Source: Tausonia pullulans
Lineage: Eukaryota > Basidiomycota > Tremellomycetes > Cystofilobasidiales > Mrakiaceae
Length of the DNA stretch: 64,000 nucleotides
Direction: 5' to 3'
NCBI GenBank assembly: GCA_951802195.1
Contig: OX637628.1
Location: 992,001-1,056,000, forward strand
A program made the position numbers and the translations under genes. Within the stretch, counting starts at the first letter, position 1; the number at the start of each line of letters is the position of its first letter. Of this stretch, positions 34,023-39,441 are shown piece by piece. Below the pieces are notes generated by a model. It saw nothing but the letters and a program-made list of their open reading frames with translations. It ran no database searches and was not told the origin of the DNA.

Positions 34023-36062
34023 AGTTATACGTAGAGAACGAGGTATCCCTATGAGAGATGGCGAGTCGTAGCAAGATAGAGGGAGAGCGAAAATGAAAGA
34101 AGAGGTGGATGGAAAGCAACAGATGGGCTTTGGGCATAGGCCAATTAGAAAGGTAAAATGACCATTTTAAAGAGCGTTGATTGGAGATAGAAGATGTAGG
34201 AGGTACAAGGGGGCGGGGTAAGGGAGATCATACTTCACCACCCCTGACCTGCCTTTCACCCAGGATCGATGACGGCGCCCACCGCAGTACCATCCATCTG
34301 GCCATTGCGAGCCATCCACCTCATGGTCGACTTTCAGTGTGTCTGCCGGATCGTAGACGCGGTCTTGCGGATCTGCTCGTCCGTGACAGGGTCGAGGGCT
34401 GCGTTCTTGCTGTACCTCCGCCTCCGGACGAAACGCCATATCCGGGCTACATAGATGCAGTAGAAGAGGAAGACCACCCTCGGCGGCGATGGTGTCGGGC
34501 AGACAAGCATCTGGAGGGAGGGAGGATGAGAGGGGAGTGAAGGAGAGGCACGTGCAGCAGTAGCAGCAGACCAGATAGCGCGCACGACGGGACACGGCTC
34601 GTCGAAGAGGTGAGAGAAGGACTCAACGGGGGTCGTCAGGCACAGCGCACATCGCTTGGACCTGTTGTGCGGCGTAGCGGTTCCGTTGGCGAGGAATGCT
34701 GTAGCAGTATGCTTCCCTGGGTGGAGACTGTACAGCGAGAAGCGATGGGCCAAGTCGACGTCCTCGGGCGACGCTCGGGACACGGCCTTGAGCAAGCACC
34801 ACTGACGCTTCCAGTCGACCTTGGTGAGCGCCGGGAAGTGGTCCTGCCATCCCTTTGGGGTGATGAGGTCGCGGTTGGCTAAAGTACGACTGTGTGCGCC
34901 GTGGGGCGCACGAGGAACGTTCAGCCGGCCAAGGTTTGTGTGGATCGGGTGGAGACCCAGCCGCAACTGGCTATCTGTACCGAACGTAGACATCCAGTGG
35001 ACAGCGTTCCTCCAGCGGTTTTGATTCCAGTAGCTCATGTCAAAGCTGATTTCTTCGAACCATGCCTGGAGGTAAGCCTGCCATCGCGCAGGGAGAGCTC
35101 CTCGGAGCGTTGTGATGGTATTCCACCAGACGGCTGGGAAGAACCATTGACCTTCCACTGGGGAAAGGAATACGCCTATCCAGCTGAAATTGGCGGGCCG
35201 AGGTCCTCTGATGAACTCTCCATCCCTGAAGATGGTGCGAGTCAGCATTCTATAAGCCCCTGAGTCGAGGCTCATGGTATGGATGATACGCTTGCGAATA
35301 CGGATCGATGCGGGAAGCTCCGGTTAGAAGAGCACATCTCCAGCCCACTGAGCTCGCGCTTTGATGAGCCGGAATCGGAGTGGCGTGAAGCCGAAGCCAC
35401 CGAGGTCTCGAGGGGTTTCTAGACGTTCTCTGCTGACGTCGTGGTGTTTCGATCGGTAGAGGGACTTGTAGGCCGTTGCCTCGAGGTCTTCCAGGATATC
35501 GTCTGGGCACGGCAGGAAGCGGTCCAGGTAGATGATCTTCGAGTAGATGTACTGGTTGATGACGTTGCATCGCGCAAGGAGAGGGAGGTCGTGCAGCGGG
35601 ATGCGCGCGAGTCGAGCCTTCAGTTTGCCGATGACATCTCGCCAGCAAGCAGGACCGTTGACCGTGCGACCACATGGAACGCCGAGGAAGTCGAATGACA
35701 GCGTTTGGACGCGCCATTCGTGGTACATCGTTGGTGCATCCGTCCGGCATGACCCTAGAGGATAAAGGAGTGATTTCTGGTAGTTCAGCTTGCTTGCTGC
35801 GGCTTTCTCGTACTCTCGGAGGTAGACCGTCGCCTCATCGACCTCCGACCAGGTCCGACACCAGATACTTAGATCGTCTGCAAAGAGGAGGACCTTCCGC
35901 TCGTGGAGAGGGGGCGGATTGGCTGGTGGGAGGCGATGGCGGAGCATACATGCCAGCGGCTCCAGAAGAAGGGCGAAGATCGTCGGTGCTGCGGCAACTC
36001 GTCGACCAGCTACTGTGATCTGTGTCATAATCTTTGTTGAAGGCGGATAGCCAGGAATCAAG
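34023..36062 (-). mobile_element. LINE (non-LTR retrotransposon), 5'-truncated copy
   Basis: Minus-strand element. The protein-coding part begins inside the reverse transcriptase palm (APTIFALLLEPLACML, then the catalytic FADD box in LLFADDLSIW), so the endonuclease and the front of RT are missing. The C-terminal part has the thumb and a terminal cysteine/histidine motif (CALC, then SHLFDEPC). The 3' UTR is 34023-34333. Its last 290 nt are repeated at 38499-38752, which defines the 3' boundary near 34023. No poly(A) tail and no clear target-site duplication were found. The truncated 5' end lies 43 nt from the tRNA-Thr locus. The clade was not assigned. Confidence 0.85.
34334..36061 (-). pseudogene. 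LINE reverse transcriptase remnant
   Basis: Two open stretches, 36061-35324 (RT palm to thumb) and 35275-34334 (C-terminal region with the Cys/His motif), are in different frames, so the copy is disrupted once near 35275-35324 as well as truncated at the 5' side. The motif QGDPL expected before APTIFALLLEPL is degenerate, another sign of decay. The element cannot move by itself. Confidence 0.8.
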
Positions 36063-36104: not shown

Positions 36105-36179
36105 ATGATGAGGTCGCCAGTTCAAACCTGGCTTGGGGCTTGCGCCCTGATAGCTCAGTGGAAGAGCGCGTCACTCGTA
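36105..36179 (+). tRNA. Circularly permuted tRNA-Thr(CGT)
   Basis: The 3' half (36105-36140: base 38, anticodon-stem 3' strand TGATG, variable loop AGGTC, T arm GCCAG-TTCAAAC-CTGGC, acceptor TTGGGGC, discriminator T) lies before the 5' half (36144-36179: acceptor GCCCTGA, TA, D arm GCTC-AGTGGAA-GAGC, G26, stem CGTCA, loop bases CTCGTA with anticodon CGT). The spacer is 3 nt (36141-36143). Rejoined between positions 37 and 38 the halves make a 72-nt cloverleaf: acceptor 7 bp with two G-U, D stem 4 bp, anticodon stem 5 bp with one G-U, T stem 5 bp, plus T8, A14, G15-C48, G18G19, A21, T33, T54T55C56, A58. The A and B boxes are therefore in reversed order. A T5 run at 36184-36188 could end Pol III transcription very soon after the 5' half. 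Reading it as two unrelated pseudogene halves is unlikely given the exact fit. Confidence 0.88.
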
Positions 36180-36420
36180 ATAATTTTTCCCTCTTTGAAG
36201 GGGAGGAAGAGATAAAGAAGTCTTCGACTCTTTTCTTACAATCCACAAGCAAGCCTGAGCACACAGGGGACTACTCTCCTTATTTTAAGTTTGGATTCCA
36301 ATTCTGAATGAAGCTTAAGAGCCGACTTAACTAAATGAGCCCAGAGATACAAAACAAATGGGAAAGAGGATTTTGGATCATATGATGTATAGCCCATTAG
36401 GCATAGATCCTACATCACAT

Positions 36421-36492: not shown

Positions 36493-38096
36493 TATCTGAG
36501 GGTCATCTCTCTCAACCCACATTTTGCTCCTTAAGCGAAGGATCAAGGAAGTCACTGATGGTCTAGGATTCCAGATTGTCTCCCTGTCGTCTCATTTCTC
36601 CCATCACTCTCCCGTCTGTCCTGGTCGGTCGACTTGAAGCCCGGCAGATATTAATTCTTGGAAGGTACCTCGTTGGGATTGTCCCAAGGGGCAAGGGCTG
36701 AGGAGGATGGTGAGAAGAGGGGTATAAGTGGAGGAGTACAACTGAAGTGCTGGCAGTAGCACGGGCTCGCTTAAAGGTCTTGGGCAGGTTTGTCGAGTCC
36801 CAACGATAGTCAGAATAATGCAAACCAATATGGTCGATGAACTGAGCGAATTATGGACGAAGGGTGAGAACAAAGGAGGGATTGAAAGAGTGATGAAACA
36901 AAAAGCGTGGGACAGTGTGGCGGAGGAGAGATTGAAAGATATGGGAACCGATGTGGTAGTTCCGCTAAATCCTAAGATATCTGCAGTTCGACTTCTCTAG
37001 GTCGAACTCCTCCTTGATCCCTTGATGAATTTCCTTTACTATCCAGGCCACTTACACCGCAGACAGCTGCAATCCACGATACCGATGGATATGCTTACGC
37101 GTGGGCACTGGCTTGCCACCGCCACAACTGACTGATGGTGCGCTTCGGGTCTTATCGTTGCCCTCCCCTGTTTAATTCGAATGAAAGGTGTTGTGGAAAC
37201 GACGCCGACCTCCTGAATAGCTGAATGTGTTCTCCGCGCAAGAGCCAGTCAAACAGGACAAACCACAGGCCATTGGGCGTTCACGTGCTTACGAGTGGAG
37301 ACGAAGTAGGCGATGGCCGAGTCGACGATCATGGGGAGGAGGTCGAGGTGGAGCCGGCTGGCGAAGCGACTTAGAGAGTCACCGTTTGTGACGAGCGTGG
37401 GTGAGTGATAATAAGGGCTCGACTGGTTTATATGGAGCCTCAGACTTGGAGGGAGACAAAAGGATATCACGTCGACTGTGACAGAGGGAGAGGAACTTTG
37501 ATGAGCAGACACCCAAGTCGAGGAAAGGCACGCGCGTACTTCAAAGTCCACGTCGAGTCGGATGCGTGGCAGAGTACCCAACTTTCATGCCCCAGAAGAG
37601 TGTGACATCGAATCCATAGGTAATGGAGGCCTGGAAAACACCGTTTGAGGGCAAGTTCAATAAGCGAGAGTGGGTGTGGGTGAGGGCAGCTCACTAGTTG
37701 CGAGAACCGCACCCTCTCTCGCTCGAGCTCTCTTTTCACATTGCTTCACACGCCTGCGAGTGAATCAACGGAGGTCGTCCAGCGACAAAGCTTGTGGTCC
37801 TGCTGTCCCTCCGTCCCTCATATAGGGGCAATGGACCTATAAATGTTTTTGTGTGGCCAGCCTCCTGGGATTGGCCCATCGATCGAAAACGGGTTGACCA
37901 GGATAACGGCGGTGCCCCTGACGGCGGACGTCCCTGCGCTTTTCGCTTCCCCCCTCAGCCAGAAATGAGGGAGGACCAAAGACCAAGGATACGAACACCC
38001 GATGATGCAAAATCGAGACGCTCGATGTGGGAAGGCAAATATATATCTGTCCCAAGCGCCCGAAACAAGAAACACCCCCTCCTCCCGCTTTCCGCC
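36493..38096. other. Tract between tRNA genes without supported genes
   Basis: About 1.6 kb of moderate GC. Open frames are short and unlike known families. A TATATAT run at about 38039-38046 stands some 50 nt before the permuted tRNA-Met and may help Pol III start there. A 'gatcgaaaac' at about 37872 resembles an initiator T loop but lacks the stems. Confidence 0.45.
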
Positions 38097-38174
38097 ACCC
38101 GAAGGTTTCCAGATCGAAACTGGAGCCCGCAACATAACTGCGGGCTGGCGCAATGGTAGCGTGTCGGGCTCATA
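38097..38174 (+). tRNA. Circularly permuted initiator tRNA-Met(CAT)
   Basis: The 3' half (38097-38132: A38, stem CCCGA, variable AGGTT, T arm TCCAG-ATCGAAA-CTGGA, acceptor GCCCGCA, discriminator A) precedes the 5' half (38139-38174: acceptor TGCGGGC, TG, D arm GCGC-AATGGTA-GCGT, G26, stem TCGGG, loop CTCATA). The spacer is 6 nt (38133-38138). Joined at 37/38 they give a 72-nt tRNA: acceptor 7/7 Watson-Crick, anticodon stem 5/5, T stem 5/5, D stem 4/4 with one G-U, and A15-T48. It is the initiator, not the elongator: three G-C pairs next to the CAT loop and A54/A60 in the T loop (ATCGAAA). The first pair is T1-A72. Flanks can pair: 38082-38089 with 38179-38186, 7 of 8 positions, as expected if a splicing helix holds the two outer ends together. 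Confidence 0.92.
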
Positions 38175-38498
38175 CAACAGCGAGAGAAGGAGCGGCCTTT
38201 ACTTTTGCAGTCTCACCTGGCTACAAGATGGTTGTTCGTCTCGCTGCGCGCGCACCCCCGTGGCAGCATGAGAAATCGATCATGCCCTAGCCTCCAGCAG
38301 TTCGTTCAACAGGATATACTCGAGCCTTAAACTGCATAAATTCCAAGCAACGCGTCTGCTGGGTGATACAGGACGCCCGCCTACTCCGTCCCGTCTCCAT
38401 CGCTGCGCGTTTCGGCACCGCCCTGTTATTTTAAAATTCTGTTTGTTGGGTTTAGATGTGGCCTAAGTGTAGGGCTATTCTGTTTATGTTAAGTCATA
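38175..38498. other. Trailer of permuted tRNA-Met and flank of LINE fragment
   Basis: Begins with the 28-nt trailer that can pair with the leader, then the TTTT at 38203-38206. After that about 290 nt without recognised features, becoming AT-rich near 38420-38498, where the LINE fragment starts. Confidence 0.5.
38203..38206 (+). terminator. Candidate Pol III terminator of permuted tRNA-Met
   Basis: First TTTT run after the 5' half, 28 nt downstream of its last base. It leaves a trailer long enough to include the segment complementary to the leader. Confidence 0.55.
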
Positions 38499-38834: not shown

Positions 38835-38983
38835 GTCTGGATGGTGTAGCGGTATCACGCCATGTTAGGGCGACAGACTGATATTCAGTGAATGGTCCAG
38901 ATACCCTGTGTGTATCTGGACTCTTCCTGACAGGTCTCACTTGCACCTCATGGAGGTCCTCGGTTCAATCCCGGGTTCGGACC
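38835..38983 (+). tRNA. tRNA-Pro(AGG) with a 77-nt intron
   Basis: Exon 1 is 38835-38870 (acceptor GTCTGGA, D arm GTGT...TCAC, stem CCATG, loop bases TTAGGG). Exon 2 is 38948-38983 (T38, stem CATGG, variable AGGTC, T arm CTCGG-TTCAATC-CCGGG, acceptor TTCGGAC, discriminator C). Anticodon stem pairs 5/5 and acceptor 7/7 with two G-U. The intron, 38871-38947, sits at the canonical 37/38 site and contains a perfect 10-bp hairpin (38895-38904 with 38912-38921, 7-nt loop). TTTT at 38985-38988 follows at once. Here the halves are in normal order, unlike the Thr and Met genes. Confidence 0.88.
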
Positions 38984-39441
38984 CTTTTGCCCGCATCAGG
39001 CAGGCCGAGCAGGTCTTCCACGGTGATGAAACAAAGTCTCCATCACATAGATTGGGCATTCGGTGAACCTCGCTTCTCTCTCCTTCCTCCGTGCCGGCGT
39101 CGAAAACGTACAGTCTGCGCTTTTTTGACTGCCTTCCCAGCAGAGAGATGTATGAGACTACGAGCACATATCTGAGCTTGCTTGCATGCGCTGTCGCCAG
39201 ATGAGCGTTGACACTAGATGTCCGTTGCGCGAGCGAGACATCAAACTCTGTGGGTCCAGAGCACATTCACGGAACTTTACGCCATACCTGCCTGATCAGA
39301 GCTCCCAACAAGCCGTCAATCACCAATCCATCGCTTCTTCTCTCTGCCTGTCCTCTCCTCGCCCGACAGCCACGAACCACAGCAACCCCGTCTATAATTG
39401 ACCCGCTCCATCTTGCCACTTTTGCCACAATACCCGTCTGC
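38984..39441. other. Right border of the accessory island
   Basis: tRNA-Pro trailer and 3' flank of the DUF1279 gene. No gene or repeat recognised. Confidence 0.5.

Follow-up and report, generated by a model that had tools for sequence, protein, structure and literature searches.

Circularly permuted initiator tRNA-Met genes in the basidiomycete fungus Tausonia pullulans

We detected in Tausonia pullulans a circularly permuted gene for the initiator tRNA-Met (iMet), in which the 3' half of the tRNA precedes the 5' half. The gene order, the intact cloverleaf, the 14 dispersed copies and the conserved or compensatory changes within the tRNA are shown by the sequence itself, as are the pairing of each copy's own outer flanks, the TATA and GAAC elements before the gene and the T run behind it; searches gave no collinear copy. 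These gene-level facts are firm for the present assembly. Judged from its sequence, we consider the unit to be a working gene, one of 14 that are apparently the sole initiator source of this fungus, with a probability of about 0.86. A second family, tRNA-Thr(CGT), is permuted as well, and the set of permuted tRNA genes as a whole appears to be real, strongly conserved and probably essential.

Sequence data and search models

The window analyzed here is the whole stretch of 64 kb taken from contig OX637628.1 (C9 in the following), positions 992001 to 1056000, and unprefixed coordinates refer to it. The assembly comprises 23,855,473 bases (23.86 Mb) on 21 contigs; its completeness is not given, and all counts obtained from genome searches are lower bounds. 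Two covariance models were used in addition to ARAGORN and Rfam. The rotated model R1 was built from 11 elongator tRNAs of the same genome, rotated at 37/38, with zero initiators among them; the training tRNAs received arbitrary spacers, and five of the 11 were given one extra base in the variable loop. It was run on the window and on 66 of 101 loci, leaving out overlapping duplicates and 20 short stretches. R2, a model of a collinear initiator, was run on the window and on 86 of the 101 loci.

Structure of the permuted initiator unit

The first-pass annotation had read 38097-38174 as a permuted initiator tRNA-Met gene with a 3' half placed before a 5' half. All of its coordinates proved correct on the forward strand: nt 38-72 of the initiator occupy 38097-38131 and A73 is at 38132, followed by a spacer of 6 nt and by nt 1-37 (Table 1). 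In this linear order neither ARAGORN nor Rfam finds a tRNA at 38097-38174. With default settings the only tRNA that they report in the 64-kb window is a tRNA-Val, to which ARAGORN adds a tRNA-Pro when introns are allowed. On the rejoined halves (with arbitrary outer letters) and on the circularized unit, ARAGORN calls tRNA-Met(cat).

The complete cloverleaf that the annotation had described for the halves rejoined at 37/38 is thus recovered, with acceptor, anticodon and T stems that are all Watson-Crick and a D stem that includes one G-T pair. The unit also carries the initiator hallmarks that had been named, i.e., the features of eukaryotic initiators: the CAT anticodon, an anticodon stem with three G-C pairs next to its loop, and A54 and A60 in the T loop. 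They are seen as GGG-CTCATAA-CCC and as an ATCGAAA T loop in an alignment with four initiator sequences. Scoring of the rotated sequence, which the annotation had proposed as a check, placed 38097-38174 at the top of the R1 matches in the 64-kb window, with 59.3 bits and an E value of 3.5e-17. Because this value was obtained with a model of rotated elongators free of initiators, the unit is not due to chance. The first-pass reading, a fungal initiator tRNA-Met gene in permuted form, is thus supported. Among the listed matches (at least 120) of a protein encoded in the window, the two organisms that carry names are basidiomycetes, Serendipita and Termitomyces, at 52-53% identity; other entries reach 59%, apart from the fungus's own protein.

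Behind the iMet unit, R1 ranked a tRNA-Thr(CGT) unit (58.1 bits), half of a tRNA-Pro (32.2 bits) and two last matches of 16.4 and 14.6 bits. The match of 32.2 bits (38948-39028) was considered as a third permuted tRNA and rejected, as it joins the 3' half of a tRNA-Pro (38835-38984), whose gene is collinear and has an intron, to a badly pairing neighbor. The intron of tRNA-Pro(AGG) apparently varies in length between copies, from 77 nt at 38835-38984 to seemingly less than 10 nt in some.

Table 1. Features of the two permuted tRNA units in the window and of their flanks.
Feature	Position	Strand	Basis or occurrence
tRNA-Thr(CGT) 3' half, nt 38-73	36105..36140	+	R1 58.1 bits, E 8.9e-17; half matches
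Spacer of the Thr unit, TGC, 3 nt	36141..36143	+	Sequence
tRNA-Thr(CGT) 5' half, nt 1-37	36144..36179	+	R1, half matches
TTTTT, likely terminator of the Thr unit	36184..36188	+	T run in 10/10 copies
Upstream element GGATACGAAC, with an inverted B-box-like reading, partly common to iMet copies	37987..37996	+	GAAC in 14/14 copies
TATA element, TATATAT	38040..38046	+	TATA at -47 to -62 in 11/14 copies
Outer helix, 5' arm (leader), partner 38179-38195	38075..38089	+	MFE fold; covariation, permutation test
Leader G at -3, possible partner of C32 (A-I pair)	38094..38094	+	14/14 copies; putative pairing
tRNA-iMet(CAT) 3' half, nt 38-73	38097..38132	+	Sequence, half matches, rotated model, ARAGORN
Spacer CATAAC, nt 73 to nt 1	38133..38138	+	5-8 nt across 14 copies
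tRNA-iMet(CAT) 5' half, nt 1-37	38139..38174	+	Sequence, half matches, rotated model, ARAGORN
Outer helix, 3' arm (trailer)	38179..38195	+	MFE fold; covariation, permutation test
TTTT, likely RNA polymerase III terminator	38203..38206	+	T run in 14/14 copies

Genomic copies and the search for a collinear initiator gene

A DNA search with 38060-38220 gave 14 places on seven contigs, all of them permuted (one on C1, three on C3, three on C6, two on C7, one on C9, two on C11 and two on C14). Both halves are identical in 13 of the 14 copies, and the remaining copy (L063) shows a compensatory change in the T stem, from A52-T62 to G52-C62. Of the spacers that follow A73, seven read CTAAC; CTAAAC and CTAAACAA are each found twice, and CTTAAC, CTAAAAC and CATAAC once each. 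The 13 other copies scored between 59.6 and 61.8 bits with R1, and the best other match in the 66 of 101 loci reached 28.5 bits. For most copies the alignments end at or near the halves, the one at C7:1162746 extending furthest.

The first-pass annotation had tied the weight of the finding to a genome-wide search for other initiator genes. This search yielded the 14 copies, every one permuted, and zero collinear ones. The rejoined 72-nt iMet, compared with the whole assembly at E values up to 10 and with all 14 candidates scored, gave 28 half matches (14 x 2) and zero full-length matches; 14 of these cover positions 37-72 of the query (nt 38-73), and the other 14 cover positions 1-36 or slightly beyond (1-37 twice, 1-40 once). 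As a positive control, a spliced collinear tRNA-Lys gave full-length matches (1-73) across the intron at 24 places, with 40 of 66 candidates scored. The anticodon-arm pattern GGGCTCATAACCC has no exact place genome-wide, and ARAGORN found no tRNA at any of its 19 places with one mismatch, one of which is the permuted copy L052 (the reversed control gave nine places). The T-arm pattern, with up to three mismatches allowed, occurs at 22 places genome-wide (control, seven), of which 14 are the permuted iMet copies; six of the eight others were examined with ARAGORN, and no tRNA was found at these six. One place, L065 (approximately 1501-1520; C8:665781), has a well-paired stem and an initiator-type ATCGAAA loop, and no tRNA was found there by ARAGORN, R1 or R2. 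The collinear model R2 gave 54 matches, the best of which are elongators (Asn, 47.8 bits; Ala, 45.3 bits), and its matches at the permuted iMet loci are partial or ill-fitting, with at most 33.1 bits.

Since the half-match and pattern searches gave nothing collinear, the initiator was found solely in permuted form in this assembly, and the lack of a collinear copy, which the annotation had stated as a condition, holds at the sensitivity of the pattern and rejoined-query searches. Besides, the searches of the genome with the rejoined iMet and Thr tRNAs revealed no stray tRNA halves away from the permuted units. In every copy the two halves lie 5-8 nt (iMet) or 3 nt (Thr) apart, which distinguishes them from split (trans-spliced) tRNAs.

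Nine TGGCTCATAACCC places (L035-L040, L043, L048, L049) were considered as tRNAs and discarded, as ARAGORN finds none; they are perhaps a dispersed repeat. The elongator tRNA-Met is collinear and contains an intron. By eye, its copies in L025 (743-827) and L028 (915-999, minus strand) have an apparent U31-U39 mismatch atop the anticodon stem and an intron of 10 nt. On C6, between approximately 674 and 1021 kb, near-identical clusters of tRNA genes (Leu, Lys, Asn, Glu, Ala) occur again and again, in either orientation, as if duplicated repeatedly.

A second permuted family, tRNA-Thr(CGT)

Approximately 2 kb upstream of the iMet unit, at 36105-36179, R1 detected a second permuted unit with the anticodon CGT (58.1 bits, E 8.9e-17). 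The tRNA-Thr(CGT) is present at 10 places (three on C4, four on C9, one on C11 and two on C15; loci L102-L111), all permuted at 37/38, and the rejoined tRNA compared with the genome gave 20 half matches and no full-length match. The 14 iMet and the 10 Thr copies thus all have the type II (37/38) order, with the 3' half directly before the 5' half on one strand. The spacers that follow T73 in the Thr copies all measure 3 nt (five TGC, three TGG, one AAA and one CCT). As the first pair of the T stem, five copies have G-C and the other five A-T, which represents a compensatory change. The model search for further permuted isotypes covered the window, the 66 of 101 loci, which had been chosen around known tRNAs, and L102-L111; in the 66 loci, R1 gave none above 28.5 bits beside the 13 iMet copies. 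In the same neighborhood of the window, an open reading frame of 313 aa (34334-35275, minus strand) lies beside the tRNA genes; it resembles by eye the end of a retrotransposon protein and has no Pfam match.

Pairing between the outer flanks

The pairing of 38082-38089 with 38179-38186, which had been pointed out in the first-pass annotation, is present in the MFE fold of the precursor. The flanks of the iMet copies are largely unrelated to one another except in three near-duplicate pairs, from each of which one copy was kept, leaving 11 copies for the test of flank pairing. Duplexes between a copy's own flanks (25 nt on each side) had a mean of -14.9 kcal/mol versus -8.4 kcal/mol for mismatched partners, and 0 of 20,000 permutations reached the observed sum; flanks of 20 and 30 nt agree. 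The signal is uneven, as the own partner ranks first in six of the 11 copies and second to fifth in the other five (25 nt). An outer helix enclosing the cloverleaf is found in 13 of the 14 MFE folds of the precursors, while the MFE fold of L059 is not a cloverleaf. In the fold of the copy in the window, 7 nt of the leader and 4 nt of the trailer beside the predicted cut sites are unpaired; a bulge-helix-bulge motif, strict or relaxed, is putative there. For the Thr family, own flanks (-7.3) did not pair better than mismatched ones (-7.5) in seven non-duplicate copies, and the test was negative with flanks of 15, 25, 40 and 60 nt.

Position -3 of the leader is where the A-I pair known from eukaryotic tRNA introns would be expected. 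A G is found there in 14 of the 14 iMet leaders, versus 29.7% of random positions, and by eye it is missing in four of the 10 Thr copies. A-I pairs are mentioned in the accessible part of a review of permuted tRNAs (PMC3978253). As a general rule for this genome the pair was set aside, since by eye some of its canonical introns do not fit, and we regard it as suggestive.

Putative transcription signals

All 14 iMet copies have a GAAC approximately 90-119 nt before nt 38 (10.8% of random positions in the window), and 11 have a TATA 47-62 nt before nt 38 (1% of random positions), three copies being without it; both intervals were set after inspection of the copies. The longer motifs TATATA and GATAYGAAC each occur upstream of seven of the 14 iMet copies, of none of the 10 Thr copies and of none of 48 collinear tRNAs, the latter all from loci L001-L030. 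Downstream, the first run of at least four T begins at position 14-30 after nt 37 in the 14 iMet copies (4.5% of random positions within 30 nt) and at position 1-9 in the 10 Thr copies (1.5%), and no TTTT lies inside the spacers of the 14 iMet copies. From the positions of these T runs, both families appear to be transcribed as units that terminate behind the 5' half. An upstream TATA-like sequence combined with a downstream T stretch is seen for iMet only and not for Thr, with neither TATATA nor TATA[AT]A upstream of any of the 10 Thr copies. Judging by these elements, iMet alone looks externally driven, and the Thr family does not. Since the Thr family shows neither paired flanks nor these TATA motifs, an outer helix and an external promoter are not general requirements of a permuted gene.

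The U6 snRNA of the same genome offers a comparison. Two U6 genes exceed the cut-off (L112, L113), with near-identical flanks that have TATATA at -31 and GGTTCGAAC at -115, counted from the Rfam start. They thus likewise combine an external TATA with an upstream element containing GAAC, and differ in that U6 is not a tRNA and that the distance from GAAC to TATA is 79 nt versus approximately 46-57 nt in iMet. In both U6 genes the sequence GGTTCGAAC is nearly a B box in either direction. Transferred from U6, the TATA spacing would therefore place the start of the iMet transcript 22-29 nt before nt 38, which would make the predicted leader just long enough for the outer helix.

Proposed maturation of the permuted transcripts

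Based on these features, we propose a scheme for the expression of the iMet genes. Because the A box comes behind the B box in the permuted order, RNA polymerase III would be recruited via the upstream elements, much as for U6. Transcription would begin about 22-29 nt before nt 38 and terminate in the T run that follows the 5' half. The transcript may then fold as a tRNA in which the spacer closes the acceptor stem and the anticodon loop is open, while the free leader and trailer could zip up as an outer helix and so imitate the intron of a tRNA. Splicing endonuclease would cut at 37 and 38, a ligase would join 37 to 38 into a circular pre-tRNA, and RNase P and tRNase Z would subsequently remove the spacer before CCA is added. 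The tRNA-Thr(CGT) may follow a similar route, with no detectable outer helix or TATA element.

The route by splicing and a circle, which the first-pass annotation had assumed to run in this fungus, is proposed by analogy and is helped by the covarying outer flanks, the conserved T runs and the endonuclease and ligase domains encoded in the genome. Sen-type domains of tRNA splicing endonuclease were found at C1:1290511 and C7:866660 (38.7 and 27.5 bits; cut-off, 27), in reading frames that resemble Sen2 and Sen34, and C6:341837-342704 encodes a tRNA ligase domain. ARAGORN finds introns in tRNAs for Asp, Lys, Leu, Ser, Pro and elongator Met, which suggests that the fungus splices its tRNAs. One of the permuted iMet genes (C6:345176-345252) is approximately 2.5 kb away from the tRNA ligase gene, possibly by coincidence.

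Alternative explanations

The permuted units could be relics or a tRNA-derived repeat, with a collinear initiator gene elsewhere, missed or unassembled, doing the work. The ungiven completeness of the assembly, search counts that are lower bounds, the initiator-like T arm in L065 and the recent duplications that include some copies (the three pairs with near-identical flanks) would fit this explanation. On the other hand, both halves are intact in 14 copies, one of them with a compensatory pair change, and are otherwise unmutated, contrary to what is expected of a SINE-like repeat or pseudogene. Outside the three pairs, the flanks are unrelated, unlike those of a repeat family, and the order of the halves, A73, the T run, the flank pairing and the upstream elements are all kept. 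Nor did the searches point to a second source: the rejoined query gave 28 halves alone up to an E value of 10, the six examined T-arm places beyond the 14 copies held no tRNA according to ARAGORN, and the anticodon-arm pattern gave none. We therefore consider relics or a repeat very improbable and hold to working permuted genes.

The TATA and GAAC elements might not be a promoter, and the internal A and B boxes, although inverted in order, might still recruit TFIIIC, transcription being otherwise ordinary. Indeed, transcription without a TATA must be possible because the permuted Thr copies carry none upstream (0 of 10 for TATATA and TATA[AT]A), and three of the 14 iMet copies lack it too. However, TATA in 11 and GAAC in 14 of the 14 copies stand at similar distances amid unrelated flanks, far above their frequency at random positions (1% and 10.8%), and U6 has comparable elements upstream, so that we regard recruitment by internal boxes alone as unlikely and favor an external promoter for iMet. 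A still less probable alternative concerns the order of processing, in which no circle would be formed: RNase P and tRNase Z would open the acceptor loop first, and the annealed halves would then be cut and ligated at 37/38 like split tRNAs. The spacers are short, the acceptor stem is a closed hairpin, and just 0-8 nt lie between nt 37 and the T run in Thr; the sequence is compatible with either order of events. Against this order, a circular intermediate that retains the spacer has been detected in red and green algae, as reported in the accessible part of PMC3978253, and a covarying outer helix would serve the splicing of an intact transcript. The route through a circular precursor is thus the one that we prefer.

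Implications

Overall, we find it rather likely, though with less confidence than for the genes themselves, that the whole iMet supply (14 genes) and the tRNA-Thr(CGT) (10 genes) of this fungus have moved onto permuted genes; that for iMet a U6-like external promoter has replaced the internal one and a copy-specific leader-trailer helix has evolved as a stand-in for an intron; that all initiation depends on tRNA endonuclease and ligase via a circular precursor; and that permuted genes have emerged anew among opisthokonts, in the form of multi-copy families. The fungal cell would then probably have to splice and circularize its initiator RNA before any protein synthesis, which would make tRNA splicing a gate on all protein synthesis. 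In a fungal genome of 24 Mb, an indispensable tRNA was found encoded only in permuted form, in 14 copies. If this holds, tRNA finders that assume collinearity will overlook the initiator of the genome, just as neither ARAGORN nor Rfam reported it in the window. Copies with independent flanks also constitute a natural comparative test of what a permuted gene needs in leader, trailer, spacer and promoter, and they bear on how permuted genes are transcribed and recognized.

Comparison with known permuted tRNA genes

Reviews, as far as their text was accessible, place permuted tRNA genes in algae, in a nucleomorph and in an archaeon (PMC3978253, PMC4033280). One of them lists 34 such genes, the algae concerned being red and green ones (PMC3978253). 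A literature search, with most subscription journals outside its reach, returned no permuted tRNA gene in a fungus, including in the accessible parts of PMC3978253, PMC12633428, PMC8450103 and PMC4033280. The permuted unit had 0 matches among the viral contigs scanned.

The following comparisons draw on the accessible part of PMC3978253. A close counterpart is the type II iMet of Micromonas (Table 1 of that review), which likewise has its junction at 37/38 and no intron. For these green algae the table gives one gene per genome, with spacers of 12 and 47 bp, whereas the fungus has 14 copies with spacers of 5-8 nt. In the red alga Cyanidioschyzon merolae (Soma et al. 2007, via PMC3978253), the 3' half also comes first and a T stretch follows downstream, and the flanks of the junction pair, as they appear to do in the fungal iMet; most of its permuted genes have a TATA-like sequence within 50 bp upstream, comparable to the fungal iMet. 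Several isotypes are permuted in this alga, including Thr(CGT) at 37/38 as in the fungus, but its iMet is permuted at 50/51 with a spacer of 74 bp, and only Gly(CCC) among its eleven permuted genes is present in two copies. The tRNA-Ser of the Bigelowiella natans nucleomorph also has its junction at 37/38, and its spacers are very short too (5 bp), although it is a different tRNA in a reduced endosymbiont genome, and the fungal Thr spacers of 3 nt are shorter still. Thermofilum pendens, an archaeon, has a permuted iMet too, along with Tyr, with the junction at 59/60 and an extra intron at 37/38.

The permuted tRNAs of the green alga Auxenochlorella were found through an incomplete tRNAscan-SE set, according to the accessible part of a 2025 preprint (PMC12633428). 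By their architecture, the fungal genes belong to the known permuted kind, type II. They are set apart from the known examples by their host kingdom, by multi-copy families for which no collinear gene was found, by upstream elements common to the copies and by their very short spacers.
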